A stretch of 34,308 nt of DNA, taken from positions 1 through 34,308 of the forward strand of contig JAHJDJ010000087.1 of NCBI GenBank assembly GCA_018812585.1. Direction: 5' to 3'. The notes below the pieces were generated by a model. It did no database searches and had not been told where the DNA came from. It was given only the letters and a program-made list of their open reading frames with translations. The stretch is from a bacterium. GTDB taxonomy: Bacteria; Electryoneota; B3-LCP. Every line of letters starts with the position of its first letter. Position 1 is the stretch's first letter. Positions 1-29,961 of the stretch are shown piece after piece. A program made the position numbers and the translations under genes.

Positions 1-1654
1 ACTCCCCTTCATCGCCGAAGTCTGTTCCGACGGGATGCTTTCCTCAAATATTTCTTCTTGAGGTGGTGGAGGAATTGCTTCGTCCAACGAAAACTCGTAA
101 ATCGTATTTCCCTCCTCCGATATGACACGATTTACACTGTGCAGTCGGATGCCGTCCATGCCGGCAGCTAAAATTGGCACACGATCCCTGGTCACAGCTT
201 TGCCGATCATGGTGAATCCTTCTGGAGTCGAAATGATCTGATCGATCCAGATTCGATTGACAGTCTTGAAGTCCTCGGATAATTTCTCAAACAGACGACT
301 CCATTTATAAGGATCATCGATGATCGTGTTCAGAAATTCAAGGTTGGCTCTATTAATATTGATCTGACTCTGAAGCTTTCCGATAACAATCAAATCCGGT
401 TGGAGTGAGGCAATTGAACTTCTTTTAGTTTCTATTGATGCTTTGAGGTTCCTGTTTTGTATGCTGAAGTCGAAACCTTGGTAAGAAAGCACCACCATTG
501 CGACGAAAATGGTACCCAACAAAGCAAAACCATGCCAGGCGACCTTGAATGCTTTTTGAGCTTCTCTGATCGAACGCGGCATGAGGTCGACGTTGATAAA
601 ATCTTTGTTCTTCTGATCTAATGCTTCCCATGCTAGAAACTGGAATAGCAAAATTCGCGAAAACTGCCAACTCCTCATTTTTTAGACTGCTGGTGTCAAG
701 AGGACCGGGCGTTATCGGTTTGACTTCGGCGTCTGGAAATTGCCGCTGGAAAAAATCCGTCGCACGTGTCATACCGATTTCGCCGGCTAATACGATCTGT
801 TCAATCTCAGGAATTCCTGCTTCTTCCTGTTCCAGCAGGATTTTACTGAAGAGCGTCTGGCAGACCTGGGGAGATTGATACCCTTCACGAATCGCCTGGA
901 TGAAAGAGATTGGTACTGCTCCCCGCATAATAATGACGCGCGAAAAGTCGGCGCCGATATAGACCACTGCGGTAATTTTATCCTCGGGAGGATCGATTGC
1001 CATTCTAACTAAATTGGCCAGAGCAATCTCGTTCGAATTAACGCTGCAGAAGTAAGGCACTCCATTCAGGTAAGTCTTCAGATCGATCAGTTCTTCAAGA
1101 ATCGGGATCTGACCTTCTGAAACAACCGCCGTCAGTTCTTCAGATTTATTTTTAAAAGAATCAATTATAGCAGATCCCAGTGTCCCGCCTGAAAGTGAAC
1201 TGATTTCATCAGCCAGGCGCTTTTGCAGTTTCTTGCCTTTTAACCCGAAATCACTCTCAAAGGTATAATAAGTAGCCTGACCCTCTGGGATATTGACCGC
1301 GATCTGATTTTTCCTCAGCGGATAGTTTGAGAACACATTCATTATCGTGCTGGAAACGTCGCCTGACGCGGACTCCATCTCCACATTATGATTATGGGCT
1401 GGTGCTTGTGTTTCGACTGAATCATCATCGAAATCGTCCAAACCGAAAATATCGCCATTCTCATTTCCCAGCATTGCCGCTTCAGCGCCGGTCGGTGTGG
1501 TGAGTTTTCCCAATCTGGCTGGCAAAGTAATGCTCTGTAACGCATGAATCGTCAGTTCGCCTTTTTCCCAACCCAATTGAGCGATGCGCAGGTCAGCGCC
1601 GTCAACCATGACGCCCAGTACCTGCCTTATTGATGAACGACCCGGAATCTTCAT
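1..1654 (-). CDS. PilM-PilN fusion (GspL-like) pilus assembly protein, frameshifted and cut by the left window edge
   Basis: The N-terminal ~330 residues read as a PilM-like actin-fold domain, with a segment AVVYIGADFSRVIIMRGAVP resembling the second phosphate-binding turn of PilM/FtsA; the first phosphate loop is degenerate. The starting frame stays open to a stop at 425, but its last ~70 residues look non-biological. The adjacent frame is open from about 680 to base 1. It gives LAWEALDQKNKDF, a membrane segment (GFALLGTIFVAMVVL) and a periplasmic PilN-like domain ending in an acidic, proline-rich tail. The shift therefore lies between about 600 and 682, best near 636, where one extra base or two missing bases would restore the frame. 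In T4P systems PilM binds PilN in the cytoplasm and links the motor to the PilO/PilP/PilQ complex; the fused layout resembles GspL of type II secretion. The start ATG at 1654 has a short GAG six bases upstream. It is last in the visible operon, 36 bases after the PilT-like gene. Sequencing error, true disruption and programmed frameshifting all remain possible. Confidence 0.75.
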
Positions 1655-1692
1655 AATCGACTCATTAATTTGCTGAATGACTTATGTGTGCT

Positions 1693-2964
1693 TTAATTGG
1701 AATATTCGAGTAATTCCCGCATACGGTTTTTATTGTTAGCGTGATTGATCGCTTCTTCCATAGAGATTTTCTTCTCCGTGACCAGCCTGCGAAGATCCTG
1801 CTCCAGGGTGTTCATACCCTCTTTATTGCCTTCGCTGATCATCTGATATACTTCTCCCGTGTTGTCGTTCTTGATGGCCGCTCTTACCGAAGAGTTGACC
1901 AGCAGCACCTCTTTTACCAGAGTTCGCTTACCGTCCAAAGTCGGTACGAGTTTCTGGGAAACGACTACCTTTAAAACGTCGGCCAGTCGATTTCGAACTC
2001 GTTCCTGCTCGTCTGTTGGACATTCAGCAACGATACGCGCGATCGATTCCACCGCGGATCCAGTATGCAAAGTAGAGAAGACCTTGTGGCCTGAGTCTGT
2101 GATCTCCAGTGCAGTCATAATTGTATCCCCATCCCGCATCTCACCGATCATGATAATGTCGGGATCCTGGCGTAACGACTGTACCGCACCCTCTTTAAAA
2201 CTATGTACGTCTCTGCCAATTTCACGATGTCGAATGATGCATCGATTTGATAAATGAACGCACTCAACTGGACTGGAAATGATGACGATATGAGCATCGA
2301 CCGTCTGATTGTTAGCGTCAATTATGCTGTCCAGAGTGGTTGACTTACCAGAACCTGTGATACCGGTGACCAGGACCAGACCCTGCTTTTCATATTTAAG
2401 CGAGAGTGCACGGGAGACCGCTGAGGAGAATCCTAAATTCTTAAAGGGAAAGATGGTATTGTTGATACACCTCATGTTGAGCGCCAGGTGATCCAGATCA
2501 AAGTACATGTCACCACGGAAGCGGACACTCTGTCCGTTGTGGGTAATGCCATAGGAAAAGTCGAGGTTCTTATGCTCCATCAGAAACTCAATCTGTCTGG
2601 ATGACAAAATGTTGAGATTCATGATGTTAAATTGATCAAGCGAGAAGGCGCCGAGCTCCATCGCAGGGCGCTTGTTATTGTAGATGCGGAGCCAGATCTG
2701 GCCCAGACATCCCTGGCCGCCTAAATCGATATCGGAAGCGTTGCTATCGATCATGTGGTGCAGGAAACTCTCAAAAAGCTCTCGAATTTCCTGACGTTCC
2801 GGGTCCTCAATTTCAGCTAATAAATCTGCGATAATGGTTTGGCGTTCCAAACCAGTCACATGCCGGGGAAGCTGTTTTTCTATGTTCTGGAAGATTTCCA
2901 GAACGCCGCTGTGAGGATCTGCTCCGATCAGTACATCATCGCCGAAGTCTAATACTTTATTCAT
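1693..2964 (-). CDS. PilT/PilU-like secretion-family ATPase with altered Asp box
   Basis: A 423-residue hexameric secretion ATPase of the PilT/PilU type, expected to power pilus retraction at the inner face of the cytoplasmic membrane. Visible motifs are Walker A GITGSGKST (201-209), Walker B region DPDIIMIGEMRD (267-278) and the His box GHKVFSTLHT (from 293). The Asp box, normally EDP(I/V)E, reads SSPVE (230-234): the Glu-Asp pair is replaced by Ser-Ser while the last Glu is kept. The N-terminal ~60 residues precede the usual PAS-like PilT domain and are longer than in classical PilT (~345 residues). The C-terminus lacks an evident AIRNLIRE motif typical of PilT. Start ATG follows a strong AAGGAAGG ribosome site. 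It lies between the Ig-repeat lipoprotein (13-base gap) and PilMN, so it belongs to the operon. A PilU-type accessory motor or a regulator of the PilB motor is also possible. Confidence 0.85.
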   Translation of the reverse strand: MNKVLDFGDDVLIGADPHSGVLEIFQNIEKQLPRHVTGLERQTIIADLLAEIEDPERQEIRELFESFLHHMIDSNASDIDLGGQGCLGQIWLRIYNNKRPAMELGAFSLDQFNIMNLNILSSRQIEFLMEHKNLDFSYGITHNGQSVRFRGDMYFDLDHLALNMRCINNTIFPFKNLGFSSAVSRALSLKYEKQGLVLVTGITGSGKSTTLDSIIDANNQTVDAHIVIISSPVECVHLSNRCIIRHREIGRDVHSFKEGAVQSLRQDPDIIMIGEMRDGDTIMTALEITDSGHKVFSTLHTGSAVESIARIVAECPTDEQERVRNRLADVLKVVVSQKLVPTLDGKRTLVKEVLLVNSSVRAAIKNDNTGEVYQMISEGNKEGMNTLEQDLRRLVTEKKISMEEAINHANNKNRMRELLEYSN

Positions 2965-2977
2965 CTGCAGCCTTCCT

Positions 2978-4696
2978 TTAATCTACAGTGCCTTCTATGA
3001 TCATCGAAGCATCACCGTTAGAACTCTCTACACTGATTGTGATCGCTGCCATGACTGCCGGATCTGTTTCTTCGGTATCGTCATCGTAGATTACAAAACT
3101 GAAATTGGTCCATGATACTGGATCTCTGGTATCTGGCAGTGTGAAATTAACGTCGCCTAATAAGCCGCCTGCAGTGGCTGATACTTCGATCTTTGTATCA
3201 TGCGCTAATGGGTATCCATTTTGATCCATAACCCTGTAATTGAAGGTTTTCGAATTGAACTGGTTAACCTCAAAATAGGGTGTATCGAGCAGGGCAATCT
3301 GTGTAATTCCTGAGAACAACACCTCGGTGGTTGCCGTTAGAATCTGACCTCCTTCTCCGACTGTTTGAGCTGAGATCGTTCCGAAAGGATAGGAAGCTGG
3401 AGGTATCGGTGGGCCGGAGAACAGGAGTACACTGGCAAAACCCGACGAATCAGTGGTCGCTGACCCCTGGATAATGCCTGCATCTGAGCTGTAATATACG
3501 GCAGTACCCATTGGCACTGGATTAGCGAAGACGTCACCGACCATAGCGATCATGCTATCTGTTCTGCCGAAAAAGTTGTAGCCTGGGAAGTTAATATAGC
3601 GTGGATATACGCCGAAATGAGTCAAGTCCGGCAATCCCGAATGAATTGTGATCGGTATTGGCGTTGATACGATATCTGGATCGCTGGCAAGAGAAGCCTT
3701 TATCTGAACCGCTCCTGAGATAGTGCCACTATTCAACGTCGTGTGCACCTGTCCTAAGACATCGGTTGTGTCCATATCGGGGAAGAGGTATTCACCACCG
3801 CCAGGTCCGCCGAGAATTTCAAAGTCGACTCCATAAGGTGAACTCCCTGTAATTGGAGATCCGGTGGCATCTTTTATGACAAAGTGGATCGTGCTCGACT
3901 CGTTGGCGCCTGTTCCTTTCACAGCAACTGAATCATATTCAGCTTCCAGGAATTGAATCGAATACGGAGGTCCTGTCTCGTAAATTAGAATTTCAGTAAG
4001 AACGGTAAAAGACGATGTAGTCCCAAATTGTGCCTTGATGATAACCTGGCCTGCGATGGTTCCGGCATGGAAAGTCGTATTGACTCGTCCATCGTGGTCT
4101 GTGACGTCACTTTCGGGATACAGAAAGGCGCCGCCACCAGGCGTTTCCAGAAATTCAAACAGGATTTGTGCAGTATGCAGCGAGTCGACGGGGCGATTGG
4201 AAGCATCCCAGACTTCACAGATTATTGAAGCGGTGCTGTTGCTGCTGAAACCATAAACTCCAATGGTGTCCGGCTCGATAGAAATCAGGACGATCTGTTC
4301 ACCAGGTCCTGAACCTGTGTATCCAGTATCAGTCACGGTAGAATCGAGGTAACGTTCTAACGTAACTGTGGGAATGTTGGTCGTCTCTCCCGCCTGGATG
4401 ACTGTAAACAGCCCGTACGCATAGTACCCCTCTTTATAGATTTCCAGCTCCACAGTCTCCTGTTCGCCTTTTGGCAAAGCGATGGCGAGATCATACTGGC
4501 CTGTTGAGTCGGTTAACGCTGTCTCGATATGAGTGATGGTGCGGACAAAGGCGTCAGGCGCCGGCGCCAGATTTGACGCATATTTGACCGTCCCCTGGAT
4601 GTGAGCCCAATCCTGTCCCGCTCCCAAGTCAGTTGATTGTTCTTCGCAACCTGCGAAGAGCAGAGCGATAACGAGCAGTAGTGACGTCTTTTTCAT
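2978..4696 (-). CDS. Lipoprotein with carboxypeptidase-regulatory-like and bacterial Ig-like repeats
   Basis: The start is set at the second Met (4696) because MKKTSLLLVIALLFAGC is a classic lipoprotein signal with lipobox FAGC and lipidated Cys17; an upstream in-frame TTG (4708) would add only four residues. Glu follows the Cys, so retention in the inner membrane by the +2 Asp rule is not expected. After a short linker a CarboxypepD_reg-like fold (about 33-115) is followed by at least three Ig-like units of the Big_1/invasin type (about 136-240, 244-353, 356-465). The first two share the pattern ETPGGG.FL.P...T...G.V.TT...GTI.G...IKA. Such modules usually form rods at the cell surface. It sits inside the pilus operon between DUF4900 and the PilT-like motor, suggesting a surface-exposed pilus accessory, adhesin or anchoring factor. 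No close ribosome site is visible at the ATG; an AAGGAG lies about 30 bases upstream. Exact function is unknown. Confidence 0.8.
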   Translation of the reverse strand: MKKTSLLLVIALLFAGCEEQSTDLGAGQDWAHIQGTVKYASNLAPAPDAFVRTITHIETALTDSTGQYDLAIALPKGEQETVELEIYKEGYYAYGLFTVIQAGETTNIPTVTLERYLDSTVTDTGYTGSGPGEQIVLISIEPDTIGVYGFSSNSTASIICEVWDASNRPVDSLHTAQILFEFLETPGGGAFLYPESDVTDHDGRVNTTFHAGTIAGQVIIKAQFGTTSSFTVLTEILIYETGPPYSIQFLEAEYDSVAVKGTGANESSTIHFVIKDATGSPITGSSPYGVDFEILGGPGGGEYLFPDMDTTDVLGQVHTTLNSGTISGAVQIKASLASDPDIVSTPIPITIHSGLPDLTHFGVYPRYINFPGYNFFGRTDSMIAMVGDVFANPVPMGTAVYYSSDAGIIQGSATTDSSGFASVLLFSGPPIPPASYPFGTISAQTVGEGGQILTATTEVLFSGITQIALLDTPYFEVNQFNSKTFNYRVMDQNGYPLAHDTKIEVSATAGGLLGDVNFTLPDTRDPVSWTNFSFVIYDDDTEETDPAVMAAITISVESSNGDASMIIEGTVD

Positions 4697-4809
4697 GGTC
4701 CGTCTCAAAGCTTAGTGAGGTGTATCTCCTTAATGGAGAACACGAGTGTTTGCAGCGTGAGCTGGAGATAATACAAAATGCGGGAGCGCTGCCTGCTGAT
4801 TTTTAAAAT

Positions 4810-4960
4810 CCCAGAGACCGGTGAGACACCGCGGGGGTCGGGGCGGAACGGTGAAACATGCGGTCAATTAGTCATCCTATCCAATCAAGAGCATCCGAAC
4901 CAGTCAGTGCATCCGTATCAAGCGTTGTTCATACGTCATGTTGACCGCCCGGTCTCCGGG
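4810..4960 (-). ncRNA. Candidate structured RNA element upstream of the Ig-repeat lipoprotein
   Basis: This lies in the 355-base gap between DUF4900 (ends 5052) and the lipoprotein start (4696), which contains no credible gene. Bases 4941-4960 form one continuous arm complementary to two separated arms, 4860-4867 (8 of 8) and 4810-4821 (11 of 12). The intervening 4827-4858 can form its own hairpin (CACCG with CGGTG). The single mismatch in the outer stem is A-C on the plus strand but a G-U wobble on the minus strand, so the minus-strand RNA, co-directional with the operon, folds better. The inner 4868-4940 includes a CGTAT/ATACG hairpin and three imperfect ~19-base units based on GGATG. No match to the c-di-GMP-I, SRP, tmRNA or RNase P cores could be recognised. 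It could be a cis-regulatory leader, an operon-internal small RNA or a processing site. Confidence 0.45.
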
Positions 4961-5051
4961 GAACTCATCTATCTAAGAAGCCTCCAATGCAGCAGAGACC
5001 TCCAGTTATTTATTCGTCAGATTTGCCTTAATTCTTAACTGGCGAATTAAT

Positions 5052-6254
5052 CTATTCGTACCAGGAAATGATTGACGTGCGCGACAGAATCGGGTAAAAG
5101 GGCGGCGCCCTCTTATAGAAGCGGGCATCATATCTATAATTCTTCGAATAGCCCGATCTAATGGTAGTGTACCAGGCGGTCCCTACTGGACCTCTTTTCT
5201 CCTGGATTATACCGCCGATGACAGCCAGTGTGCCTCGCGGACCACCTTGATTATATTTCTCCACATAAAAGCTTTTGTGTAACGCCATAATTGAGGCGTA
5301 AATAGTACAGTTGGTCATATTTGCAGTCGTAGCTGAAACTACGACGTCATGCATTGCTATCAAGCCCAATATATCATCTGAAGTTGGATCGACCAGGGGA
5401 TCAGCCGCATAGAGAATATCATCGTCGATCAAGATGTCTCCATCGGCAAGAACCGTGGCTTGACCATCCAGAGTGCCTTTGACATGGATGTCTTTTGAGT
5501 TATCTGTGGCAATGACACCGTTCGTGGCGGAGAGCACGGTATTCCCGCTGGAATCCAGCGTGGCGCCAGTGTACACTTCCCAGTTGAAGGTGCCATCGCT
5601 AATAAACTCGACGTAAGTTTCGCCCGAAAACAACATTCCAGCGCTGGCAGCTTTCCCTTGGATTACTGAGAGATCAACCGGCAGATCGAGCTGTGCACTG
5701 CCGAATTGTGTCCCACCTATGAACTGAGGACTTCCAGTTCCCACCCAACCCGCGCCCACGGAGGATACTAAGCCATAAAAGACTGGATTTCCGGAAATAT
5801 GGAACTTACCATTCGTATGAATGGGCCCTCTAAGCGTATCTCCCGTGATAAAAAAAATGGGTGGTTCTGTATTACTGAAGTAAGCGAACTCAGAAAAGGG
5901 TGTGCGCCGCACTTCAACAACAGCAGTTCTTGATTCACCACAGATGTTTCCGGTCGCGGTTATACGCAAATGATCCGACGCGAGTGTCGTGTCCACAGTT
6001 GCATCTACGATGGTGACATTCCCATGACCATCCATCAAAGACAAGTTGGTGAATCCTTCGTCCCAACCATAGTTAGAACGGATTTCATTTAAACTGATAT
6101 TCACCATGCTGTTGGTAATGTTTCTCGCCGTGGCTTCAAGGTATTGGTCATTACTGAGTTCCTGTGCATCACCGCTGAGACGGTTATGATTCAGGCGCAG
6201 TATGCCGGCTACAATGGTAAAGCCGACGACAAGGATGAGTGTGAAGCGTCCCAT
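5052..6254 (-). CDS. DUF4900-type (PilX-like) pilus-associated protein
   Basis: A 400-residue protein with an N-terminal hydrophobic helix (residues 4-20) directly after Met-Gly, then a mostly beta-rich exported region. Patterns such as GDTLRGPIHTNGKFHISG, DGQATVLADGDILIDDDI and GLIAMHDVVV are typical of the DUF4900 family, whose members occur in pilus and secretion loci of Deinococcus and FCB bacteria and resemble PilX-like tip or minor components. The Met-Gly plus hydrophobic helix layout matches the other pilin-like proteins of this operon, suggesting it could be inserted into the fibre or act as a tip subunit; its size is much larger than a minor pilin. The start ATG has a strong AAGGAGGG ribosome site eight bases upstream. 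It follows the minor pilin with an 87-base gap. Assignment to DUF4900 is from memory of the family pattern. Confidence 0.65.
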   Translation of the reverse strand: MGRFTLILVVGFTIVAGILRLNHNRLSGDAQELSNDQYLEATARNITNSMVNISLNEIRSNYGWDEGFTNLSLMDGHGNVTIVDATVDTTLASDHLRITATGNICGESRTAVVEVRRTPFSEFAYFSNTEPPIFFITGDTLRGPIHTNGKFHISGNPVFYGLVSSVGAGWVGTGSPQFIGGTQFGSAQLDLPVDLSVIQGKAASAGMLFSGETYVEFISDGTFNWEVYTGATLDSSGNTVLSATNGVIATDNSKDIHVKGTLDGQATVLADGDILIDDDILYAADPLVDPTSDDILGLIAMHDVVVSATTANMTNCTIYASIMALHKSFYVEKYNQGGPRGTLAVIGGIIQEKRGPVGTAWYTTIRSGYSKNYRYDARFYKRAPPFYPILSRTSIISWYE

Positions 6255-6341
6255 GATTGTCCCTCCTTAAAAGAGATCAGTTACTGGTAAATCCTTGACT
6301 CGCGCTGCCAACGAGATAGCGGTGTGCATTTGCTTGCCTCA

Positions 6342-6896
6342 TCAGAATAAATTACGCGGGTAGACTGTGCCGGTCCAAACAGAACGAGCGTAAACTGAAT
6401 TTACCGGCATGATGCTTTCGAAAGTCATCTCATACTCCAGATAACGGACCAGTGTCATATCCGTAACTTGATTACCGCCGGCGTCATAGTAGCGGACCTG
6501 AAAATCGGTTACTCCAAAAGTGCCGCCTATTGTGACGCCATTCAGTGTGCTATATAGAATGCTATCGTTGGGGTTTTCCGTGCCGATTGCCGCATCAGTC
6601 GTACTTAATTGATAATTTACCACATCTATGACGCCATCGTTATCTACATCAGCACGGAAGGTGATTCCACTGGTATCGCCATTGACGATCGATAACCATG
6701 GATTGGCTACGCCATAACCGATCTTACGAAAATTGAAATCCATTTCTTCTACCAGCAGAACCATGTTCTCTTGGACACTCAGCTCAAACTGGTCTTCCAG
6801 GGTCATATTGGCAAAGTTGGTGTTATAGCTTAAAATCATGATCAGCAGTAAACCACCGATAATGAACGACCCCAACATATCAAGCATCGTACTCAT
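6342..6896 (-). CDS. Minor pilin-like protein (PilW/PilV-like layout)
   Basis: A 184-residue protein with an N-terminal hydrophobic helix (MLGSFIIGGLLLIMILSYN), a helical segment (residues ~28-58) and a soluble beta-rich domain containing a calcium-like DVDNDGVID stretch (about 82-90). The layout matches minor pilins of the PilW/PilV type, which prime or sit at the tip of T4P fibres. No canonical prepilin site with Glu at +5 is present; a possible processing point is after Gly9. The ribosome site AGGAG lies in the last codons of the upstream receiver-cNMP gene, so translation is probably coupled (two-base gap). It precedes DUF4900. Confidence 0.65.
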   Translation of the reverse strand: MSTMLDMLGSFIIGGLLLIMILSYNTNFANMTLEDQFELSVQENMVLLVEEMDFNFRKIGYGVANPWLSIVNGDTSGITFRADVDNDGVIDVVNYQLSTTDAAIGTENPNDSILYSTLNGVTIGGTFGVTDFQVRYYDAGGNQVTDMTLVRYLEYEMTFESIMPVNSVYARSVWTGTVYPRNLF

Positions 6897-6898
6897 GA

Positions 6899-7762
6899 TT
6901 ATCTCCTGAGAATCCGTTCCAGATGAATGATTTGGGCGCTGGCTCTGCGCAATTTCTGATAAAATGTATTAAGAGTGTTGATGATAAAGTACTTAAATAC
7001 CTTCTCTTCATGCCGGTTGAAAAAGTCCAGAATAGCTGAACGCTCTATCACCGTTGCTGTTACAGACGTGCTGGCAATTAAAGTCTGATTTGCGGCATTT
7101 CCTCGGAAGATAAAGATTTCGCCATAACAATCGTGTTTGTGCAGCTTGAATAACTCGAATTCTTCCTGGCGTACCGAAATTTCACCTTCATGAAGGATGA
7201 TAAGATTACGGTCTATAAGACCCTCTTTGGTCAATACATCATTTGGTGAAAACGTCTGAATGGTGCCCAGATTCATGAACTCGATGATGCTTTCCTCTGA
7301 GAAATTGTGCAGCAGTGGGATGGTAGGTGTGTTTTCCTTGACGGCCGCCATAGTCTCGCTTAGCTCCTTTTTTAGACGGTCATTTTCAGCTTTAAGCTGA
7401 TGTTGCTGCAAAGCCATGCGGATCGTGATTTTTACCTCATCGAGAATGAGTGGCTTGGATAAATAATCGAAAGCGCCTCGTTTCATCGCCTCTACAGCAG
7501 AATCTACGTCCCCAAAACCGGAAAACATGATGATCGTCTGGTCAGGATCAATTTTGCGCATCTCTTCCAATAACTGCAGGCCATCCATACCAGGCATGCG
7601 AATGTCTGAAAGAACGACCTGAAAACGTTCCTTTTCAAAAAGACTCAGAGCTTCTTCGCCATTCGGTGTGGTGAAAACCTCATACTGTTCCCCTACCAGA
7701 GAGTCTTTGCAGAGATCCAGTATTTCAGCGTCATCATCGACTATCAGAATTTTGTTTTCCAT
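6899..7762 (-). CDS. Receiver-domain response regulator fused to a cyclic-nucleotide-binding-like domain
   Basis: The start is set at the second Met (7762) because GTGAG lies six bases upstream of it but directly abuts the first ATG (7768). The CheY-like receiver has acidic pocket DDD near residues 9-11, phospho-acceptor Asp53 in SDIRMPGMDG, switch Ser in FSGFG and Lys103 in LSKPL. A coiled coil (~115-140) leads to a CAP-type cNMP-fold domain (~160-260). Its phosphate-binding cassette reads GEIFIFRGNAANQT rather than the usual GE...R(A/T)A pattern, so cyclic nucleotide binding is doubtful. There is no DNA-binding domain. Its position between two minor pilin genes suggests a protein-protein output onto the pilus machine, for example onto the PilB or PilT-like motors. 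The sensor kinase is not in view. Domain calls are firm; the role is inferred. Confidence 0.85.
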   Translation of the reverse strand: MENKILIVDDDAEILDLCKDSLVGEQYEVFTTPNGEEALSLFEKERFQVVLSDIRMPGMDGLQLLEEMRKIDPDQTIIMFSGFGDVDSAVEAMKRGAFDYLSKPLILDEVKITIRMALQQHQLKAENDRLKKELSETMAAVKENTPTIPLLHNFSEESIIEFMNLGTIQTFSPNDVLTKEGLIDRNLIILHEGEISVRQEEFELFKLHKHDCYGEIFIFRGNAANQTLIASTSVTATVIERSAILDFFNRHEEKVFKYFIINTLNTFYQKLRRASAQIIHLERILRR

Positions 7763-7792
7763 TATCATCTCACTGATTGATCAACCCTGATA

Positions 7793-8305
7793 TTAGAAAT
7801 ATCCGAAAATTTGCTCTAACGTAATCGAAACCGGATCATCGCTTGCTGGATTGACCATGTAAGGCGATGTCACAGTAATCTTCAGTTTCTTAAGGAACGT
7901 CTCGGTGCCGCTGGGCGTCGAGGGATTGGTTTCCGATACGTATTCAACATTTCCAGTTATCGTGAAGGGGACAGAAGGAAAAGTCGTAGAGTCAACTATT
8001 GTAACACCATGGTAATCATCAACATCATCGAAGTTGGGAAAGCTTTCACTTCCATCTGGACCTAAATCATCATCTTCTGTCAAATCATTTGCGCTGGTTA
8101 ATCGAGCACTGATAGTCTCTTCATCAAAATCCAATCGGGATGCTTCAGTCAATATCTTTTGTGCCAGAGCAATGGCCGTTAGTTCAGCATTCGTTGAAAT
8201 GATTGTAGTCTCATTGTACATCAGAGATTCATTCAACGACGGCAGTGTCAAGCTGAATATCACCAAAGCGCCCAGCACCAGCAGCATTTGTCCTGTATTA
8301 GTCAT
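7793..8305 (-). CDS. Minor pilin-like protein
   Basis: A 170-residue protein with N-terminus MTNTGQMLLVLGALVIFSLT: a short polar leader ending in Gly5, a hydrophobic helix and then a polar helix (~30-60), the layout of a class-III-like prepilin. Cleavage after Gly would expose QMLLVLG, resembling the QQQLLLIV start of the pilin at 11812-12225. The +5 Glu of classical pilins is absent. The C-terminal domain is acidic and beta-rich without a recognised fold. It begins 12 bases after the PilB gene with an AGAGAGG ribosome site, placing it in the motor operon. It is probably a minor subunit or priming component. Confidence 0.65.
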   Translation of the reverse strand: MTNTGQMLLVLGALVIFSLTLPSLNESLMYNETTIISTNAELTAIALAQKILTEASRLDFDEETISARLTSANDLTEDDDLGPDGSESFPNFDDVDDYHGVTIVDSTTFPSVPFTITGNVEYVSETNPSTPSGTETFLKKLKITVTSPYMVNPASDDPVSITLEQIFGYF

Positions 8306-8317
8306 AATTGCACCTCT

Positions 8318-10114
8318 CTAATCCTCCGCAGTGGCAAACGCAATCTCTTCGCAATTAGCGACGCCCTCTTTGATGCGTTCGCGACCCGAGGCTCTTAATG
8401 TCAACATTTTATTCTTTACCGCTTCCGTGCGCAGGGCATCTTCATCAACTTCGTCTCCCGCATCTAATATTAATCGTCGTATTTCCCGGGTAAAAAACAA
8501 CGCTTCGTGAATGGCGGCGCGTCCCTTATAACCATTTGTGCAATGCTCACAACCAACCGCTTTATGGAAAAGAGTCGTTTCAATCTCTTCAGCAACGAAC
8601 CCCAGACTTAATGGCACCTCAAGATCCAAATCAGTATCAACTTCCTTACACTTCGGACAGAGTGTCCGAATCAACCTCTGCGCAACGATTATATTGATGG
8701 CGTAAGCGATCAGGAACGGCTCCACACCCATCTTGAACAGACGAGATACAGCGGACGGAGCATCGTTGGTATGCAGAGTAGAGAAGGTCAAGTGACCTGT
8801 GTTGGCCAGCTTGATTGCGATCTCAGCGGTCTCTTTATCACGCATTTCACCCACCATGACGATATCCGGGTCGTGACGCAGAATAGCTCTGATGGCTCCT
8901 TCAAAACCGAGGGTATGGCTGATTTTTATCTGCCGAGCGCCCTTGATGATGTATTCAACCGGATCTTCAACCGTCAGACAGTTCACTTCCGATGATAATA
9001 CCTGGTACAGCGCAGCGACCAGGGTTGTCGATTTACCAGAACCAGTCGGACCGGTCAGAATCACCATCCCCTGTGGTTTGGTAATGGCTTTCCGGAAATC
9101 CTTCTTCGCCTGGGGTTGCAATCCCAATTTATCCAAATCTGTGATGATTTTACGATCATCGAGAACACGAATAACGATGGATTCTAACTTGCGCTTGAAC
9201 TCGGTGGACACTATTGGGATGATTGATACTCTAAAACGGATCATGGTTCCGTCGATGTTGCGCTGGATATATCCGTCCTGAGCTGTCTCACGTTCAAATC
9301 GGTCTACGTTTCTTGATCGATCTTTAACCACAGCCGCCATGGCTTCTGGTTTAATTAATTCCTGAGTATGCCATAATTGCAACTTGCCATCGATGCGGAA
9401 GTAGAAGTCCGTCTTATTACCTGCTTGAGGCATGACGTGAATGTCAGAGACGCCTCTGCGAACAGCTTCTACCAGACAGCCTTCGACCAGGTTAGTCAAT
9501 AGAGATTGGTTGATTTCCTGATCTAAAGCCTCTTCATCGATGCCGTCTTCGCCGCCGCCATCTTCTATGGATTCGAAAGAGCCGGCTGATTCTTCTATGA
9601 TCTGCAGGAATTCATTCGTGGTTGGATAAACGCTCTCAATCCACTTTTTGATATTTTCCCGCTTGGCGTAAGCTAATTCAATATGCCTGAACCGCAGTTT
9701 CTTCGCAAGAACCATAATATCGCGGTTCGTAGGATCATCTGTCAAAACCAGCAAAGTATCCGGTCGATTCTCATCGATGCGAAACGGTAAGACATTACTT
9801 TGAAAGAGCTCTACTCTCTCTTTTTTACTGACACTATCATAAAGCGACTTGATGAATTGACCTTTTTTATCAGTTATTTCAAACTTTTCAAGGTCAACTT
9901 CCGGAAAAGCGTAGATCCGGGCTAATTCGAGATAAATCTCATGGCGTTCACAATTGAGATCCTCGACTAAGATTTCACCTAATTTCCGACGCGACCCTTC
10001 CTCAGCCTGCTGTAGAAGAATGGCTTTGTCCAATATATCCTGATCGATAACCCCGCGCTGGACCAGTAATTCGCCGGTACGCGTTATCTTTCTTATTTCG
10101 TCCTTTACAGCCAT
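8318..10114 (-). CDS. pilB: PilB/GspE-family pilus extension ATPase
   Basis: A 598-residue assembly motor. An N-terminal MshEN/GspE-N-like region (about 10-160; LLVQRGVIDQDILDKAI and KLGEILVE) precedes an acidic linker (180-200) and the ATPase core. Visible motifs are Walker A GPTGSGKS (355-362), Asp box EDPVEY (383-388), Walker B region DPDIVMVGEMRD (415-426), His box HLTFSTLHT (441-449) and a zinc tetracysteine site CPKC (486-489) and CEHC (522-525). All catalytic residues look intact, in contrast to the PilT-like partner. It drives polymerisation by acting on PilC. The gene starts five bases after pilC and has no strong ribosome site, suggesting translational coupling. The MshEN-like domain can bind c-di-GMP in some homologues; whether it does here cannot be judged by eye. 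Confidence 0.92.
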   Translation of the reverse strand: MAVKDEIRKITRTGELLVQRGVIDQDILDKAILLQQAEEGSRRKLGEILVEDLNCERHEIYLELARIYAFPEVDLEKFEITDKKGQFIKSLYDSVSKKERVELFQSNVLPFRIDENRPDTLLVLTDDPTNRDIMVLAKKLRFRHIELAYAKRENIKKWIESVYPTTNEFLQIIEESAGSFESIEDGGGEDGIDEEALDQEINQSLLTNLVEGCLVEAVRRGVSDIHVMPQAGNKTDFYFRIDGKLQLWHTQELIKPEAMAAVVKDRSRNVDRFERETAQDGYIQRNIDGTMIRFRVSIIPIVSTEFKRKLESIVIRVLDDRKIITDLDKLGLQPQAKKDFRKAITKPQGMVILTGPTGSGKSTTLVAALYQVLSSEVNCLTVEDPVEYIIKGARQIKISHTLGFEGAIRAILRHDPDIVMVGEMRDKETAEIAIKLANTGHLTFSTLHTNDAPSAVSRLFKMGVEPFLIAYAINIIVAQRLIRTLCPKCKEVDTDLDLEVPLSLGFVAEEIETTLFHKAVGCEHCTNGYKGRAAIHEALFFTREIRRLILDAGDEVDEDALRTEAVKNKMLTLRASGRERIKEGVANCEEIAFATAED

Positions 10115-10119
10115 AAGAT

Positions 10120-11460
10120 CTACATGCCGGGCGTTTTCGGTCGGATGACCGCCGTCTCCGAACTAACAATCGTGATCGCAGTCATTACCACCATGATCGC
10201 CATGGCGACGAAAACCTGGATCATATCGATAATATTATTTAGTTTATGGGTTGTCTCTTTTTCGTAGTAGTTCGCCACTTGCAGCGCTGTTTCCCGAATA
10301 GTGCCTGTCTCCGCGCCGGAGTGCAGCCGCTGCAAAGCATTCCGTGTAAAGACTCCGGTCTTCTCCAGAGCTTCGATCAGTCCCTTACCCTCCTTCAGCA
10401 TCATCGGTATTGCAATATCCTTAATTTGCTTTTCCATATAAGGACTACGGCACGCTTCAGCAGCAATACGAATTGCCTCCACGTTTTCACCAGAACCTGA
10501 GTATAGTGAGTGAAATACGCGGCACCAGATTTCAATCGACGTTTTATGCATCAAGGTGCCGACAACCGGAACCTTGATCATGTACTTTGACAGGAGAAAC
10601 CTTCCCTTAGTTGTGATGACCATTCTGGTAATCACTGCCGCGACTATCGATATGCTGCCAATAATCCATATAGCATTTGACTGCAGCCAACCAGATAAGG
10701 CTAATGTCCCCGCAGTCATGGGTGGCAGATCAATGTCGAATTTCAAGAACATATTGGCCGTCTCGGGGAAGATATAGGCCACGTAAAACAGCACCGCGCC
10801 TAACAGAGCCAACACGACGACCGCCGGCATGATCATAGCGCTTTTCAGGTTCTTTTTGAATTCTTCATTACGTTCGAGAAATTTAGCAGTCGATTCGTAG
10901 ATCTCGACCATGTTACCCGATTTTGATGCAACTCCCAGCATATGCGCAGGGAATTTTCCTAAACTATCCGCCTGCTTGCCGAAAACTTCGGTGCCGTCCT
11001 TACCGTCTTTCAGGTCCTGATGAATCTCCTTCAATGTCTGCTTTAGCGCCTTATTGTCAATGTCATTGGAAAGGAGATTCAGAATTTCGTCGTACGGTAG
11101 TTTCTCACGCAGAAGATCCGCAGACAAACGGATAAACATCACGATGTCCTTTGCCGGAGGTTTTACCTTGAATTCGATGACTTTTTTCTGGATGGATTGG
11201 ACTGTGTATCCCATCTTTTCCAGCGCCCGCCTGACTTCATCGGCGTTGAATGCCTTCTGCTGACCAGCCAAAGCGGCTTCTTTTCCTTTGCGAACCTTGT
11301 AGACGAAGGTTGATTTGCGCTCCAGCTTCTTCAATCGGAAGCGGCGCTGTTTAGCGATATCTTCTGCGCGCTTCTGAGCATCCCTTTTGTTCTTTGCAGA
11401 AAGAATGCCCTGAACCACACGACCGGAAACCGCTATGCCCTGGTATCTAAATTCAGCCAT
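10120..11460 (-). CDS. pilC: PilC/GspF-family inner-membrane platform protein
   Basis: The start is placed at MAEFRYQG (11460), which matches the usual N-terminus of PilC; the in-frame GTG at 11472 would add MWTL. A variable N-terminal region (~1-100) with a basic stretch is followed by two T2SSF domains with membrane segments around PAVVVLALLGAVLFYVAYIF, AIWIIGSISIVAAVITRMV and the C-terminal VFVAMAIMVVMTAITIV. Conserved patterns such as LLREKLPYDEIL, ASKSGNMVEIYE and RLHSGAETGTI agree with the family. At 446 residues it is slightly longer than typical PilC (~400). PilC is the membrane rotor on which PilB and PilT act. It is the first gene after the 350-base leader following the pilin gene. 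Confidence 0.92.
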   Translation of the reverse strand: MAEFRYQGIAVSGRVVQGILSAKNKRDAQKRAEDIAKQRRFRLKKLERKSTFVYKVRKGKEAALAGQQKAFNADEVRRALEKMGYTVQSIQKKVIEFKVKPPAKDIVMFIRLSADLLREKLPYDEILNLLSNDIDNKALKQTLKEIHQDLKDGKDGTEVFGKQADSLGKFPAHMLGVASKSGNMVEIYESTAKFLERNEEFKKNLKSAMIMPAVVVLALLGAVLFYVAYIFPETANMFLKFDIDLPPMTAGTLALSGWLQSNAIWIIGSISIVAAVITRMVITTKGRFLLSKYMIKVPVVGTLMHKTSIEIWCRVFHSLYSGSGENVEAIRIAAEACRSPYMEKQIKDIAIPMMLKEGKGLIEALEKTGVFTRNALQRLHSGAETGTIRETALQVANYYEKETTHKLNNIIDMIQVFVAMAIMVVMTAITIVSSETAVIRPKTPGM

Positions 11461-11718
11461 TAACGTCCACAATCGGGTTGTTTCAAAAATGATTCCAAAC
11501 TATCTAACGATCCATAAAGACAGTGCTTTAAAGATAATTGTTCCTTATAAATACAAAAAAGCAGGTCCTGTTGATCATCGCAGGCAGATTTCCCTGGAGA
11601 GGATCGTTCAGACATGCTGGAGTTTGGGCAGATTTTATTTCCTTTTTTCATGACAGCGATTCTAATAGCGTGGACTGAAACTGAATATCGCTAATAACCC
11701 CGTAATTATAACATCGAG
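11461..11718 (-). other. Leader region upstream of pilC without a recognised gene
   Basis: Together with the hairpin at 11719-11748 this fills the 350 bases between the pilin stop and pilC. A 63-codon minus-strand frame starting at 11651 overlaps the pilC start, has an unremarkable composition and is not called. No sigma-54 element was found. A TATAAT-like hexamer on the minus strand near 11703-11708 lacks a -35 box. The stretch may simply be a long 5' leader for pilC, transcribed from the pilin promoter by read-through. Confidence 0.3.
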
Positions 11719-11748
11719 GCCGGCGGCTCCGTTTCCGGAACCGCCGGC
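11719..11748 (-). terminator. GC-rich hairpin between pilin and pilC (terminator/attenuator or mRNA stabiliser)
   Basis: Arms 11719-11731 and 11736-11748 form a 13-pair stem with a four-base loop. On the minus strand the one non-Watson-Crick position is a U-G wobble (a C-A mismatch on the plus strand), so the minus-strand transcript is favoured. No U-tract follows, so full intrinsic termination is doubtful; partial termination or 3'-end protection of an abundant pilin message fits better. Confidence 0.55.
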
Positions 11749-11811
11749 GCTATCAACAGGCGATTGTGGAGGTAGAAGACAGCCCGTGATAGATCTTGTC
11801 ACAGACCCAAT

Positions 11812-12225
11812 CTACCGGGTTGATATAGTCATGTCAATACTGTCAGCCCATACCTGAATAGTAGCTGTACAGTTTGTACCGTCACCGTCGCCATCTTCGG
11901 TTCCAACACCTGTAAGAGTCACGGACGTGGCGCTACCAGCAGTGCTGATTGTGTAGGCGCCGTTTTCATTGGTAGGTTGCGTGGTCAGGAATTCCATTCC
12001 AGCCGCACTAGCTGCCAGCAGTACAAATGAACCACCGCCACCACCCATGGCAAGCGGGCGACGGAAATGCTGCTGTGCACGTGATGCCAGGTTAATCAAG
12101 TCTGCTGTTACCGCGTCCAGATTCGAAGAAGCGGCCTGATCGTTGAACATGTTAATACCGACGACGACTGCGATACCAACGATGATGACTGATAAGACGA
12201 TCAGTAAGAGTTGTTGTTGTCCCAT
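11812..12225 (-). CDS. Probable major pilin subunit of a non-canonical type IV pilus
   Basis: A 137-residue protein starting MGQQQLLLIVLSVIIVGIAV: a two-residue leader ending in Gly, three Gln, a long hydrophobic helix, then a polar amphipathic helix (~28-55) and a glycine-rich stretch MGGGGGSF (~60-67) ahead of a small Thr/Ser-rich beta domain. The layout and size fit a pilin, but the Glu at +5 of the mature form and the Phe at +1 are missing. I recall similar MGQQQLLL proteins next to pilB/pilC in FCB-type genomes; this is memory, not a search. It has its own sigma-54-type promoter, a strong ribosome site (GGAGG, five bases from ATG) and a GC-rich hairpin downstream, all consistent with the most abundant product of the locus. 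Major-subunit status is inferred from those signals. Confidence 0.75.
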   Translation of the reverse strand: MGQQQLLLIVLSVIIVGIAVVVGINMFNDQAASSNLDAVTADLINLASRAQQHFRRPLAMGGGGGSFVLLAASAAGMEFLTTQPTNENGAYTISTAGSATSVTLTGVGTEDGDGDGTNCTATIQVWADSIDMTISTR

Positions 12226-12293
12226 GATTCCTCCGTTACAATGTTATTATGATTTGAGTGAATTTAGTCCCATTCGCTTTCGAGTTGATAATA

Positions 12294-12309
12294 GACAAAT
12301 CCCGTGCCA
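12294..12309 (-). promoter_or_regulatory. Sigma-54 (-24/-12) promoter of the pilin gene
   Basis: Minus-strand sequence TGGCACGGGATTTGTC matches the consensus TGGCACG-N4-TTGC with a single change (TTGT for TTGC) and the exact 10-base spacing between the GG and G(C) elements. A start near 12283 would leave a leader of about 58 bases before the pilin ATG. An NtrC-family activator is encoded immediately upstream. Confidence 0.8.
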
Positions 12310-12377
12310 GTTTTGTAAGTTATTAATAAATAATATGATAAAACGCAATTATCTCAGAATCCCAGGAATATTGTATA

Positions 12378-12494
12378 ATACTTGTTGATATTTATTGAAT
12401 CTGTCGCGCTATGGATACAGCAAATTCTGGCGATAACGCATAATGCACATAAAACCAACAGCTTATGGACCTGTCACAAAAGAATGATTCTGTC
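12378..12494. promoter_or_regulatory. Candidate activator binding region (three CTGTC boxes) with a possible IHF-like site
   Basis: Plus-strand CTGTC occurs at 12401-12405, 12471-12475 and 12490-12494, that is 92, 162 and 181 bases upstream of the -24 element, a usual distance for bEBP enhancer sites. PilR of Pseudomonas aeruginosa recognises sites containing (C/G)TGTC, so the motif is plausible. An A/T-rich TATCAACAAG stretch at 12381-12390 (minus strand) partly fits an IHF site and lies between enhancer and promoter. Five-base boxes are weak evidence alone; position and clustering are the argument. Confidence 0.4.
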
Positions 12495-12533
12495 ATAAAA
12501 TGATTACAAGTGGTCGCAAAACAGCTTAAAAAA

Positions 12534-13928
12534 CTACCCGGATACCAGTTCCTCTACAAGGTTTGCTGGTGAAATTCCAAGTTGTTTCATCTTGCGATGA
12601 TAGTTCTGCCGAGGTAAACCAGCGCTGCGTGCCGCGTCAGTTACGCAGCCGTCATGTCTGCTTAGTATTTCCAGCAGATATCGCTTTTCAAACTGCTTCT
12701 TGGCGACATGAATGGGTAGATCCATTATCTCCGAAACCCAGTCATGTCCCTTAAAGGTAGGAGTATCAACAAAATCATTCGGTCCCAGAGCTTGCTTTTC
12801 TGTCAGTGCGACAGTTCGTTCAACCCTGTTCTCCAGTTCCCGAACATTTCCAGGCCAATCGTGAGCGCATAATTGCCTGATTGCTTCAGGGGTAATTTCC
12901 TTAATATCCTTAGCGAATGCGTCTGCATACTTTTTAAGAAAATACCTGGCAAGAATGGGTATATCTTCGCGACGCTCCCTTAAAGGAGGTAATGATAAAG
13001 TTATGACATTCAACCGAAAATACAGATCTTTTCGGAATCTTCCCCCTTCTACTTCAATTTCAAGGTCTTTATTCGTCGCGGCGATCAACCGAATATTACA
13101 AGAAACTTCTTCGTCACCGCCGACACGCTGAAAAGAGCGATTCTGCAAAACGCGGAGTAGCTTCACCTGGAGTGGCTGGGGCATATCGCCTACCTCGTCC
13201 AGGAAAAGAGTGCCTTCATGCGCCTCTTCGAAATACCCTTTAACGCGGTGTGTCGCGCCAGTAAAGGCTCCCTTCTCATGTCCGAATAGGAGCGATTCAA
13301 GAAGCCCTTCAGGTAATCCCCCTGAATTGACGCTGATGAAGGGACCATTCGATCGCTTGCTGTTGCGCTGCAGGGTTTTAGCGATTAATTCCTTTCCAGT
13401 ACCGGTTTCACCGGTTATCAGGACGGTCGCATCGATCGGAGCGATCTTCTTCACTAAAGAAAAGACCTCCTGCATCGCCGGGCTGGCGCTGATTAAACCA
13501 TCCAGTTGAAAGCGTTCTTCAAGCTGCTTTTTCAAAAATCTATTTTCCAGACGCACTCTGGCCACCTCAATCAGACGTTGTGCCGCAAGGTTGACTTCAT
13601 CGATATCACGAAACGGCTTTTCCAGGTAATCCTCAGCGCCGGCCTTCATCGCCTGAACCGCCATGGAAATATTTCCATAAGCGCTCATCATGATGATCGC
13701 TGTTTCAGGCGATATCTTTTTAATGCGCGGCAACAGCTCCAGACCTGTGATGTCTGGCATCTTGATATCGAGGAAAATCAGATCGTAGGGATTTCGCCTG
13801 ATTACCTCCAGTACTTTGTGAGGATCAGTTTGCCATTCGACGATCCATTTCTGATCCTCCAGAGCTTCTGCTAAAAGGATGCAGATATCGGCTTCGTCGT
13901 CGACAATCAGGATTCTTGCTGAGTGCAT
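12534..13928 (-). CDS. PilR-like NtrC-family sigma-54-dependent response regulator
   Basis: A 464-residue three-domain activator. The receiver domain has acidic residues DDE near 10-12, phospho-acceptor Asp54 in FLDIKMPD and Lys104 in LEKPF. The AAA+ domain has Walker A GETGTGKE (173-180), the sigma-54 contact loop GAFTGA (220-225), Walker B LFLDEVGD (241-248) and the arginine-finger region FRKDLYFRLNV. A Fis-type helix-turn-helix closes the protein (CVTDAARSAGLPRQNYHRKM, about 429-448). It is the first gene of the pilus locus, 308 bases upstream of a pilin gene that has a good -24/-12 promoter and clustered CTGTC boxes, so it probably activates pilin transcription. A perfect TATAAT (13952-13957, minus) lies 24 bases upstream of the ATG without an obvious -35. 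No PilS-like kinase is adjacent. Confidence 0.9.
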   Translation of the reverse strand: MHSARILIVDDEADICILLAEALEDQKWIVEWQTDPHKVLEVIRRNPYDLIFLDIKMPDITGLELLPRIKKISPETAIIMMSAYGNISMAVQAMKAGAEDYLEKPFRDIDEVNLAAQRLIEVARVRLENRFLKKQLEERFQLDGLISASPAMQEVFSLVKKIAPIDATVLITGETGTGKELIAKTLQRNSKRSNGPFISVNSGGLPEGLLESLLFGHEKGAFTGATHRVKGYFEEAHEGTLFLDEVGDMPQPLQVKLLRVLQNRSFQRVGGDEEVSCNIRLIAATNKDLEIEVEGGRFRKDLYFRLNVITLSLPPLRERREDIPILARYFLKKYADAFAKDIKEITPEAIRQLCAHDWPGNVRELENRVERTVALTEKQALGPNDFVDTPTFKGHDWVSEIMDLPIHVAKKQFEKRYLLEILSRHDGCVTDAARSAGLPRQNYHRKMKQLGISPANLVEELVSG

Positions 13929-14045: not shown

Positions 14046-14528
14046 TTAGTGGATTTGTGTGATATCAAACTCCTCAACCAGAGCTTGATAAGCTTTGGAA
14101 AGCTCTGTCTCTCTGATGCAGCAGGTAAGACAATCGAAACTGGTGGAGATTAATTCTATATTTATGGAGAGATTAGCTATCACGCGGAACAGTCTGGCGG
14201 CTATTCCAGGCATTTTAAAAATGTTTTTACGCGAGAGTGTGATTAAACCGATGCCATCATCCCGGTAAAACCCACGCGCACACATATCAGGACAAAGATT
14301 CTGGAGCTGTTGTTCCGCAGCAAAGACAAATTCATCCTTGATCACCAGCGAGATTTCCGCAACGTCCGCATAGCTTGCAGTTTGGATTACCAGCTCAACA
14401 TTGATACCCGCTGAGCTTAAGATGGTGAAGATCTCAGCCGCGATCCCAGGACGATCCGGAACACCCTGTAATGTGAACTTTACCACGTCGCGGTCAAGAA
14501 GAAGCTGGAAGTTTCGCTCCTCACTCAT
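14046..14528 (-). CDS. Stand-alone tandem ACT-domain protein (aspartokinase-regulatory-like)
   Basis: A 160-residue protein made of two ACT units (about 14-78 and 88-155). The first has the typical VKFTLQGVPDRPGIAAEIF followed by AGINVELVIQ; the second has FKMPGIAARLFRVIANLSINIELIS and ends with a helix ELSKAYQALVEEF, as in the C-terminal regulatory half of aspartokinase. There is no catalytic domain. ACT pairs bind amino acids, most often lysine or threonine in aspartokinases, so this may be a detached regulatory subunit or amino-acid sensor. It is monocistronic, with its own sigma-70 promoter (14625-14653) and terminator, divergent from obg. The partner enzyme is not in view. Confidence 0.8.
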   Translation of the reverse strand: MSEERNFQLLLDRDVVKFTLQGVPDRPGIAAEIFTILSSAGINVELVIQTASYADVAEISLVIKDEFVFAAEQQLQNLCPDMCARGFYRDDGIGLITLSRKNIFKMPGIAARLFRVIANLSINIELISTSFDCLTCCIRETELSKAYQALVEEFDITQIH

Positions 14529-29300: not shown

Positions 29301-29896
29301 TTACGACGCTTCCATTCCACGTAATTTGAAATGTTCCCTTCAGCAAAATCAGGGCAGATCACTAAAAGATGTTCCTGATCAAAATCATCGATGCCATTCG
29401 TTGCAGCTGGATTGACCGTTAAAGCATCGAAGAGTTTACGCAGTGATTTAACTGACTTCGGAGCAGCCACCTCATTGATCCCAGATCCAGAAGCAGAAAT
29501 CTGTACTTTCACATTGTTGATCGGCTCATACTGTGACGCCCGATAAATCGATGGACGAATATTCAACGTTGCCAATCGAACGCCGCGCAAAATAACCGGT
29601 TTCCCAAGGTTCACTTCAACCAGCGGCGAAGCGTCGATTACGTCAATCTTCGCAGCCCCATGTTCAGGCAGGACGATCCAGGTGGAAAACACCTCATCAC
29701 CCGTGCATTCTGACTGTTTATTCCAAAAAGAGCTGAAGTCGAAAGCTGCTGTCAGTCCAAAAGGTGTGTCAGCTATGATATCGATGCCTGCCTTGTGTTC
29801 AGGAATAGAGATGGGAAGTACGACAGTTGCAAAGGCTGGGCTCGTTGCTAACAACAGTAAACCTATTGCGTATTTTCCGAATTTCAGCGCAGTCAT
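26306..29896 (-). CDS. C25 (gingipain-like) family protein with T9SS C-terminal sorting domain; catalytic His replaced
   Basis: The start is set at MTALKFGKYAIGLLLL (29896), which gives a signal peptide ending SPAFA and a GGAGA ribosome site; the longer frame adds 18 unlikely residues. The order is a pro-region, a C25 caspase-like region (about 175-530) with the Cys in TGIGCGVTLF (Cys423) and CFGEAWM, then Ig-like/CARDB-like beta domains, a lectin-like module and a C-terminal NPAYPNPFNPSTTLNFTIP...GIYFARLDYQG domain typical of type IX secretion (Por/FlgD-like fold). The position of the catalytic His, expected 33 residues before the Cys in gingipain, reads Ser390 in LNYRGSGW. The protein is probably surface-attached or secreted; proteolysis is uncertain. 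A -24/-12 promoter lies at 29946-29961, and the ABC exporter follows directly. Confidence 0.85.
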   Translation of the reverse strand: MTALKFGKYAIGLLLLATSPAFATVVLPISIPEHKAGIDIIADTPFGLTAAFDFSSFWNKQSECTGDEVFSTWIVLPEHGAAKIDVIDASPLVEVNLGKPVILRGVRLATLNIRPSIYRASQYEPINNVKVQISASGSGINEVAAPKSVKSLRKLFDALTVNPAATNGIDDFDQEHLLVICPDFAEGNISNYVEWKRRKGIEVTVSTLSDIGISSTNDIGLKNYIQQAYETWVNPPDFVLLAGDETVLPVHMDFTDDPTTIFSTASVPGWYSDENWFVCVDGDDFFPDIIMGRWIVNTEYEYIYMSEKIKTYEMTPNLTLTDWYEHAVVTAQDIYYYQGDPSMRETKLQTQQMMYNAGISQVDTLFSMTNPYQLVQWMTEGRSFLNYRGSGWTMGWAGLNFYIDMVYEIQNTFMLPTVTGIGCGVTLFVEPDECFGEAWMLQGTVNNQKGAITFVGPTWNTHTFFNNELDLGLYQSLFEEGEPRTSTALIAGKMAMYDYFDDYFIQDPNIEEIVRVAFNQYHTISDPELAPYSAIPEPLSADPPITVLNGSQSITITVTDQYGFPFEGAQVCLYAPDDFQTADLTGPDGTVTLTSQATQLPGYVYVTATAHNKAAFVDSMLIITASQYVLHYDYIIDDSQVGNNDGGLSPGEDVEWVEVLKNYGVLSALDVHAVMSSSHPEVTITQGEASFGDIAQSATATSIPNYALSVAAEPYIIGDEIEIQLDITDAADSSWTSIIILPLLTPDMTVLSFDPDPTGNDRLDRGETANLSFSLRNDGTSAMDDATLELSTDDEYIEILEGSAPLGSVGIGSMVFSGSSPFVIAVSPYTPTLHEVTFEVTVVSNQATYTFEDSEEFTFEVDEYGEVDPTASLNFDYYAYESSDYLFSEAPDFVWFELDPDSGGPGQVLPFSNSDQLINVDLPFTFTYWGQNFEEMTVSADGWVQPGSVSTVSPINYDLPHFDDVAGMIAALWDDLWNTDNEEGRILHYYDENSGCYYIEYNYLSHHANAATKETFQIVLCDPAVEVTATGDGEILFYYKSLHMFGILFTTAGIESVSQTDAISLCFNNNTPITASGLRDSLAVKFTPDPPEITGIRQLPPTAQHRIIPTDFVFNPAYPNPFNPSTTLNFTIPISGVVELNVFNVRGQLVDDLQSGQLQPGYYSLNVDASDWGSGIYFARLDYQGQSHVQKLLLVK

Positions 29897-29945
29897 GGAG
29901 TCTCCGGTAAATTCTGTTATATCTGCATGTGCATGATAATTTAAA

Positions 29946-29961
29946 AGCAAAAATGCTGCCA
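29946..29961 (-). promoter_or_regulatory. Sigma-54 (-24/-12) promoter of the C25/T9SS gene
   Basis: Minus-strand TGGCAGCATTTTTGCT keeps TGGCA and TTGCT with exact spacing; two consensus positions differ (CG to GC). A start near 29935 gives a ~40-base leader. Confidence 0.65.

Follow-up and report, generated by a model that had tools for sequence, protein, structure and literature searches.

A candidate type IV pilus of FCB bacteria with a putatively leaderless pilin

The genes at positions 1–13928 of the window (the whole stretch of DNA that was analysed, 34,308 nt) probably encode a retractile type IV pilus specific to FCB bacteria; as read from sequence comparison, its pilin would have no cleavable leader and its assembly would not need a prepilin peptidase. 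Loci of this type encode PilB, PilC, PilT, a PilM–PilN fusion, PilO and a short PilQ, together with a pilin that lacks Glu5. Somewhat less firmly, we favor the broader proposition that prepilin processing has been lost throughout an entire branch of these pili, with pilins that would be ready for assembly, would be trimmed at most by methionine aminopeptidase and would make no Glu5 contact. Since the window's own genome has one PilD and genes of other filaments, the proposed independence from PilD rests on relatives, which share the identical pilin N-terminus.

Gene content of the locus

All the pilus genes named in a preliminary description of this DNA are present on the minus strand within positions 1–13928, most with matches in Pfam or NCBIfam; all features described in this section are on that strand. 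A PilR-type activator with receiver and sigma-54 activator domains (12534–13928; PF00072, PF00158, HTH_8) lies upstream of the pilin gene, as it does in all sister genomes (LCP-89 and related candidates). A double ACT-domain protein (14046–14528) adjoins PilR, also in two sister loci, and another receiver–sigma-54 activator (32365–33720) is 37% identical to PilR. A sigma-54-like −24/−12 site, TGGCACG-N4-TTGTC, is located at 12294–12309, 84 nt upstream of the pilin start. When 96 pilin upstream regions were scanned, TGGCA-N6-TTGT-like sites were seen 74–113 nt upstream of the pilin in sister genomes; the motif is consistent among these genomes and not convincing across all phyla, with a single-site p of about 0.01–0.08.

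The major pilin (11812–12225; 137 aa, MGQQQLLLIVLSVIIVG..., no leader apparent) was identified by pilin alignment and an AF2 model. It is followed by the inner-membrane platform protein PilC (10120–11472; PF00482, 1.1e-31), which has an N-terminal extension and likely starts at the ATG at 11460, and by the extension ATPase PilB with an MshEN domain (8318–10114; TIGR02538, 4.6e-126; PF05157; PF00437, 9.6e-101). The assembly ATPase (T2SSE) and the platform protein (T2SSF) expected of a type IV filament are thus both present. Minor pilin-like protein 1 (7793–8305; 170 aa, MTNTGQMLLVLGAL...) lacks Glu5 and has homologues in the same slot with M-x2/3-G-Q N-termini. The slot of minor pilin-like protein 2 (6342–6896; 184 aa, MSTMLDMLGSFIIGG...), between minor pilin 1 and the DUF4900 gene, is conserved as well. 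A receiver and cNMP-binding protein (6899–7768; PF00072, PF00027) and an Ig-repeat lipoprotein (2978–4708; Big_1/Invasin_D3, PF02369 and PF09134), whose lipobox LLFAGC is retained among homologues, are accessory.

The retraction ATPase PilT (1693–2964) has the Walker A motif GITGSGKST and the Walker B motif IMIGEMRD; it matches TIGR01420 at 3.7e-94, with a score of 315.8 bits against a cut-off of 319.1. The solved structures nearest to it are nearly all PilT or PilU, which marks it as a retraction ATPase of the type IVa pilus kind.

The PilM–PilN fusion reported earlier is intact in sister genomes, where it is a single frame of 743–769 aa (with a C-terminal TPR tail in the one scanned), and is split in the window into two overlapping ORFs, PilM (425–1654) and PilN (1–678), because two bases present in relatives are deleted near 632; the contig end falls inside PilN. 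Programmed frameshifting was considered and rejected: relatives have one frame and the window is two bases short. The deletion could have arisen naturally or, so close to the end of the contig, in assembly.

Outside the pilus locus, the window encodes a gingipain-like C25 peptidase (26306–29950), by domain a type IX substrate; because it carries a Por secretion tail, the host organism probably also has a type IX secretion system.

The protein with a DUF4900 match (5052–6254; Pfam match sub-threshold, 4e-5) has an AF2 model (pLDDT 88) with a pilin helix at residues 2–60 and a sheet, followed by a large beta-rich domain. Foldseek matched this model to ComZ of Thermus thermophilus (6qvi; E 1.8e-7, probability 1.00). 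ComZ is a DNA-binding pilin into which a beta-solenoid is inserted; a position at the pilus tip has been argued for it (PMC6561018). The likeness to the ComZ/PilA2 tip extends to the pilin helix, the sheet and the large beta-solenoid-like domain; sequence identity is only ∼12%, and Thermus, unlike most hosts of the pilus described here, has a prepilin peptidase (PF01478 match in a Thermus control genome). In the model, the DUF4900 protein looks like a ComZ-like tip pilin, and because of this resemblance DNA capture or tip adhesion is plausible. The function of the locus, previously called not evident, is narrowed to that extent.

Recurrence and distribution

The expectation that the gene order would recur as a block was borne out: sister genomes have an identical order, and the core is found in tens of distant loci, so the arrangement is not due to chance. 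Across FCB phyla the core reads pilin-PilC-PilB...PilT-PilMN-PilO-PilQ. Past the point where the window ends, sister genomes continue with PilO (∼294 aa) and then PilQ, which has 400 aa and a Secretin domain (PF00263); these are two of the genes that the preliminary description suggested looking for left of the window. The PilMNO proteins and secretin PilQ of a type IVa pilus are therefore complete in relatives; for the window they would lie beyond its edge. Because a secretin search of the window's own genome gave two other secretins and no short PilQ, the remainder of the operon is probably unassembled there.

Among GTDB r220 genomes, one per species, we found 240 relatives of PilC and fetched 80 of them. 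Nearly all come from FCB or neighboring candidate phyla (Ignavibacteria, Balneolia, Calditrichota, KSB1, Kryptonia, Latescibacterota, Coatesbacteria). The few labelled Ectothiorhodospiraceae or Deltaproteobacteria look like mislabelled bins, judging from their position inside FCB clades of the PilC tree. In this tree all 45 FCB-type sequences form one clade on a long branch (support 100/100), separate from both canonical PilC and the Bacteroidota PilC of Cytophaga type (99/95); the wider placement is uncertain because of long branches.

Genes were counted in the 50 loci in which over 9 kb of sequence follows PilC. PilB was present in all 50, PilT in 48, PilMN in 47, PilO in 42 and PilQ in 39, and the order PilB-PilT-PilMN-PilO was kept in 42. 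Minor pilins were found in 18 of these loci, the DUF4900 protein in 13, the Ig lipoprotein in 16 and the receiver/cNMP protein in 26. The core is therefore general and the accessories are extras of some lineages; the Ig lipoprotein and the receiver-cNMP protein, earlier proposed as defining parts, turned out to be optional. In 61 of 74 loci PilC is immediately preceded by the pilin gene; many Ignavibacteria carry MGQQQ pilins in tandem, two or three of them, upstream of PilC. Variant layouts were seen in L041 and L057 (G007), with the secretin upstream of the pilin in L041, and in L048 (G023), where the locus is rearranged and no PilT was recognised.

N-terminus and fold of the major pilin

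In every lineage the major pilin begins MGQQQLLLIVLGVIIVG or nearly so. Invariant in 47 aligned pilins are M1, G2, Q4, Q5, L6-L8, L11, G17, N35, P57 and G62, and none of 107 pilins has D, E, K or R within residues 1–24. Absence of Glu at position +5, noted in the preliminary description, holds for all four pilin-like proteins.

The position of the start codon was checked in 96 pilins. In 91 of them no ATG, GTG or TTG occurs upstream before the preceding stop; 49 have an in-frame stop at most six codons upstream of the start, and 82 have a Shine–Dalgarno-like site positioned for the ATG. A leader longer than ‘MG’ is therefore impossible in nearly all pilins. A class III signal peptide consists of a leader of 6–26 residues ending in Gly and followed by Glu5; here the leader is at most MG and Glu5 is absent.

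In the AF2 model of the pilin (pLDDT 87, pTM 0.70), with a helix at residues 2–55 and four strands, the predicted layout is that of a type IV pilin. Similarity searches gave little beyond this: Foldseek of the model against PDB returned no significant match (the best type IV pilin matches had E∼0.8), type IV pilins were at the top of a PDB profile search only at E∼0.1, the pilin was matched by neither NCBIfam nor PHROGs, and a PHROGs search of the pilin-like proteins gave no match.

Search for prepilin peptidase

According to a review, the peptidase is part of the conserved core of type IV filaments, and Glu5 mutants fail to form homopolymeric pili (PMC4471445). We searched 48 genomes carrying the locus for PilD (PF01478), with the presence of another type IV filament judged by canonical N_methyl prepilins or extra T2SSF platform proteins. 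PilD was found in 14 genomes, all with another filament: 14 of the 16 genomes with another filament have it, versus 0 of the 32 with only this system (Fisher p = 2.5e-10, uncorrected for relatedness of genomes). The 32 include the chromosome CP070707 (a single 4.06-Mb record) and Stygiobacter electus strain 09-Me. Weak PilD matches (E up to 10) inspected in 17 PilD-less genomes include none that resembles an A24 peptidase.

A second, even draw of 297 genomes was made from Bacteroidota, the phylum of Stygiobacter, with a requested completeness of at least 90 and few genomes shared with the first set. PilC of this type was found in 103 genomes, PilD in 40 and both in 11; all 11 carry an additional canonical T2SSF. 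PilD was thus present in 11 of 14 genomes with another system and in 0 of 89 with only this one.

PF01478 misses divergent PilDs: it was negative in 12 of 41 Bacteroidota genomes that have another T2SSF and lack this PilC. It misses or barely matches divergent prepilin peptidases of ∼150–170 aa in seven Cytophaga-type loci; the family model is too narrow for Bacteroidota. Since PF01478 alone was judged insufficient, we built a second profile from divergent and ordinary PilDs. It recovers 7 of 10 retested PF01478-negative controls; three recovered genes were read, and each has the catalytic motif and adjoins PilB. Applied to the 32 genomes, this profile gave two weak matches, one to a transporter-like protein and one to a 202-aa protein in which the second Asp motif is missing; by motif, neither is a peptidase. 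No ORF for a multi-TM GxGD protein was present in any fetched pilus locus. By profile searches, each of which misses some true PilDs and none of which would reveal a peptidase of a different family, a dedicated A24 prepilin peptidase was found in none of the 32 and none of the 89 genomes. The preliminary description suggested looking for PilD to the left of the window; one is present in the window's own genome, and none is detectable in most genomes with this pilus.

Alternative explanations

Some observations speak against the leaderless reading. Gly2 is strictly conserved, as would be expected if a peptidase cut after it, the PilD of the window's genome could process the pilin there, and the pilin shows only weak similarity to solved pilins. 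The locus might instead be a type IV pilus of ordinary mechanism in which a peptidase encoded elsewhere, either strongly diverged or unrelated, cuts the pilin after MG to give a QQQ... N-terminus. Gly precedes Gln in minor pilin 1 too (MNTGQ, MGTGQ, MSSGQ), and divergent PilDs missed by PF01478 do exist in Bacteroidota. We nevertheless consider cleavage after MG rather unlikely: the profile that recovers divergent PilDs finds none in genomes with only this pilus, an uncharged leader of two residues is far shorter than the 6–26 residues of class III signal peptides (PMC4471445), and the inspected PilDs of Bacteroidota mostly adjoin PilB, while none is near PilB of this locus type. It is still less probable that in the window's lineage the single PilD (contig C361), shared with another filament, processes the pilin and that the PilD-less loci are decaying or non-functional. 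The window's genome does contain other T2SSE proteins and two other secretins besides this PilD, but in PilD-less genomes the locus is intact and strongly conserved between phyla, with an MGQQQ N-terminus identical to that in PilD-bearing genomes; we give this explanation only a very slight chance.

Almost as improbable, in our estimate, is a type II-like secretion pseudopilus in place of a surface pilus, comparable with the Cytophaga-type ‘T2SS of Bacteroidetes’. The PilC protein obtains a slightly better score from GspF models than from those of PilC, the secretin is short and PilMNO-like proteins also occur in the Cytophaga T2SS (PMC5553014). Against this, the retraction ATPase is kept in nearly all of the long loci, the two PilC clades are separate, and Cytophaga-type clusters have PilD and LQE-type pilins with Glu.

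Comparison with known type IV filaments

The type IVa pilus (T4aP) shares with this locus PilB, PilC, PilT, PilM/N/O, PilQ, PilR-type control and minor pilins. In contrast to T4aP, the locus has no class III leader, no Glu5 and, in most hosts, no detectable prepilin peptidase; its PilM and PilN are fused, its secretin is only ∼400 aa and its PilC belongs to a distant separate clade. By leader, Glu5 and peptidase it is not a canonical T4aP, although it would probably work like one.

The Cytophaga-type T2SS (PMC5553014; PMC6668835) also occurs in Bacteroidota and also has divergent PilMNO-like subunits, but it possesses a PilD of its own and Glu-containing pilins; membership in this system was rejected on the separate PilC clades (100/100 versus 99/95). 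PilM and PilN have no meaningful Pfam match; the PilN part weakly resembles the PilM-like family of Amuc_1101 (2.2e-4) and PilQ weakly resembles Amuc_1098, both of the Akkermansia Amuc_1098-1102 pilus-like system, with matches far below family cut-offs. MSH pili (PMC6668835) are likewise encoded by loci without a prepilin peptidase gene, but in their genomes PilD is present from another system, whereas most genomes with this pilus have none. A Tad pilus was rejected, as the locus has a single two-domain T2SSF platform, best matches to PilB and PilT, and no Glu5. Tad pili use the TadA ATPase, paired TadB/TadC platform proteins and a Flp pilin with Glu5. The distinct FCB pilus without Glu at +5 that the preliminary description proposed thus stands as a recurrent block that fits no described subtype; it is a new variant of type IV filament, to which we assign no named subtype.

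Proposed mechanism and implications

In the mechanism that we propose, PilR and sigma-54 would turn on the pilin gene, and the pilin would insert N-in/C-out. Because Gly follows Met, methionine aminopeptidase would remove the Met, leaving GQQQLLL.... The filament would then pack via the Gln-rich N-terminus, replacing the usual pairing of Glu5 with the N-terminal amine. Priming of assembly may fall to the two small minor pilins together with the ComZ-like DUF4900 protein, and these three proteins may lie at the tip as a DNA receptor or adhesin; by retracting the fibre, PilT would enable surface adhesion, twitching or DNA capture. In some lineages the Ig lipoprotein may be an outer-membrane accessory.

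The genome paper on Melioribacter roseus, an FCB bacterium, reports that pilA and pilD were not found and describes the pilus set as incomplete (PMC3534657). The absence of pilA would be explained by a pilin of the type described here, and the leaderless reading, if true, would explain the incomplete set. Annotation would improve as well, given that the pilin at present escapes both NCBIfam and PHROGs. To our knowledge, all or nearly all bacterial type IV filaments are held to rely on A24 prepilin processing and Glu5. If a pilus widespread in nature lacks both, it would reveal what the assembly mechanism can do without.
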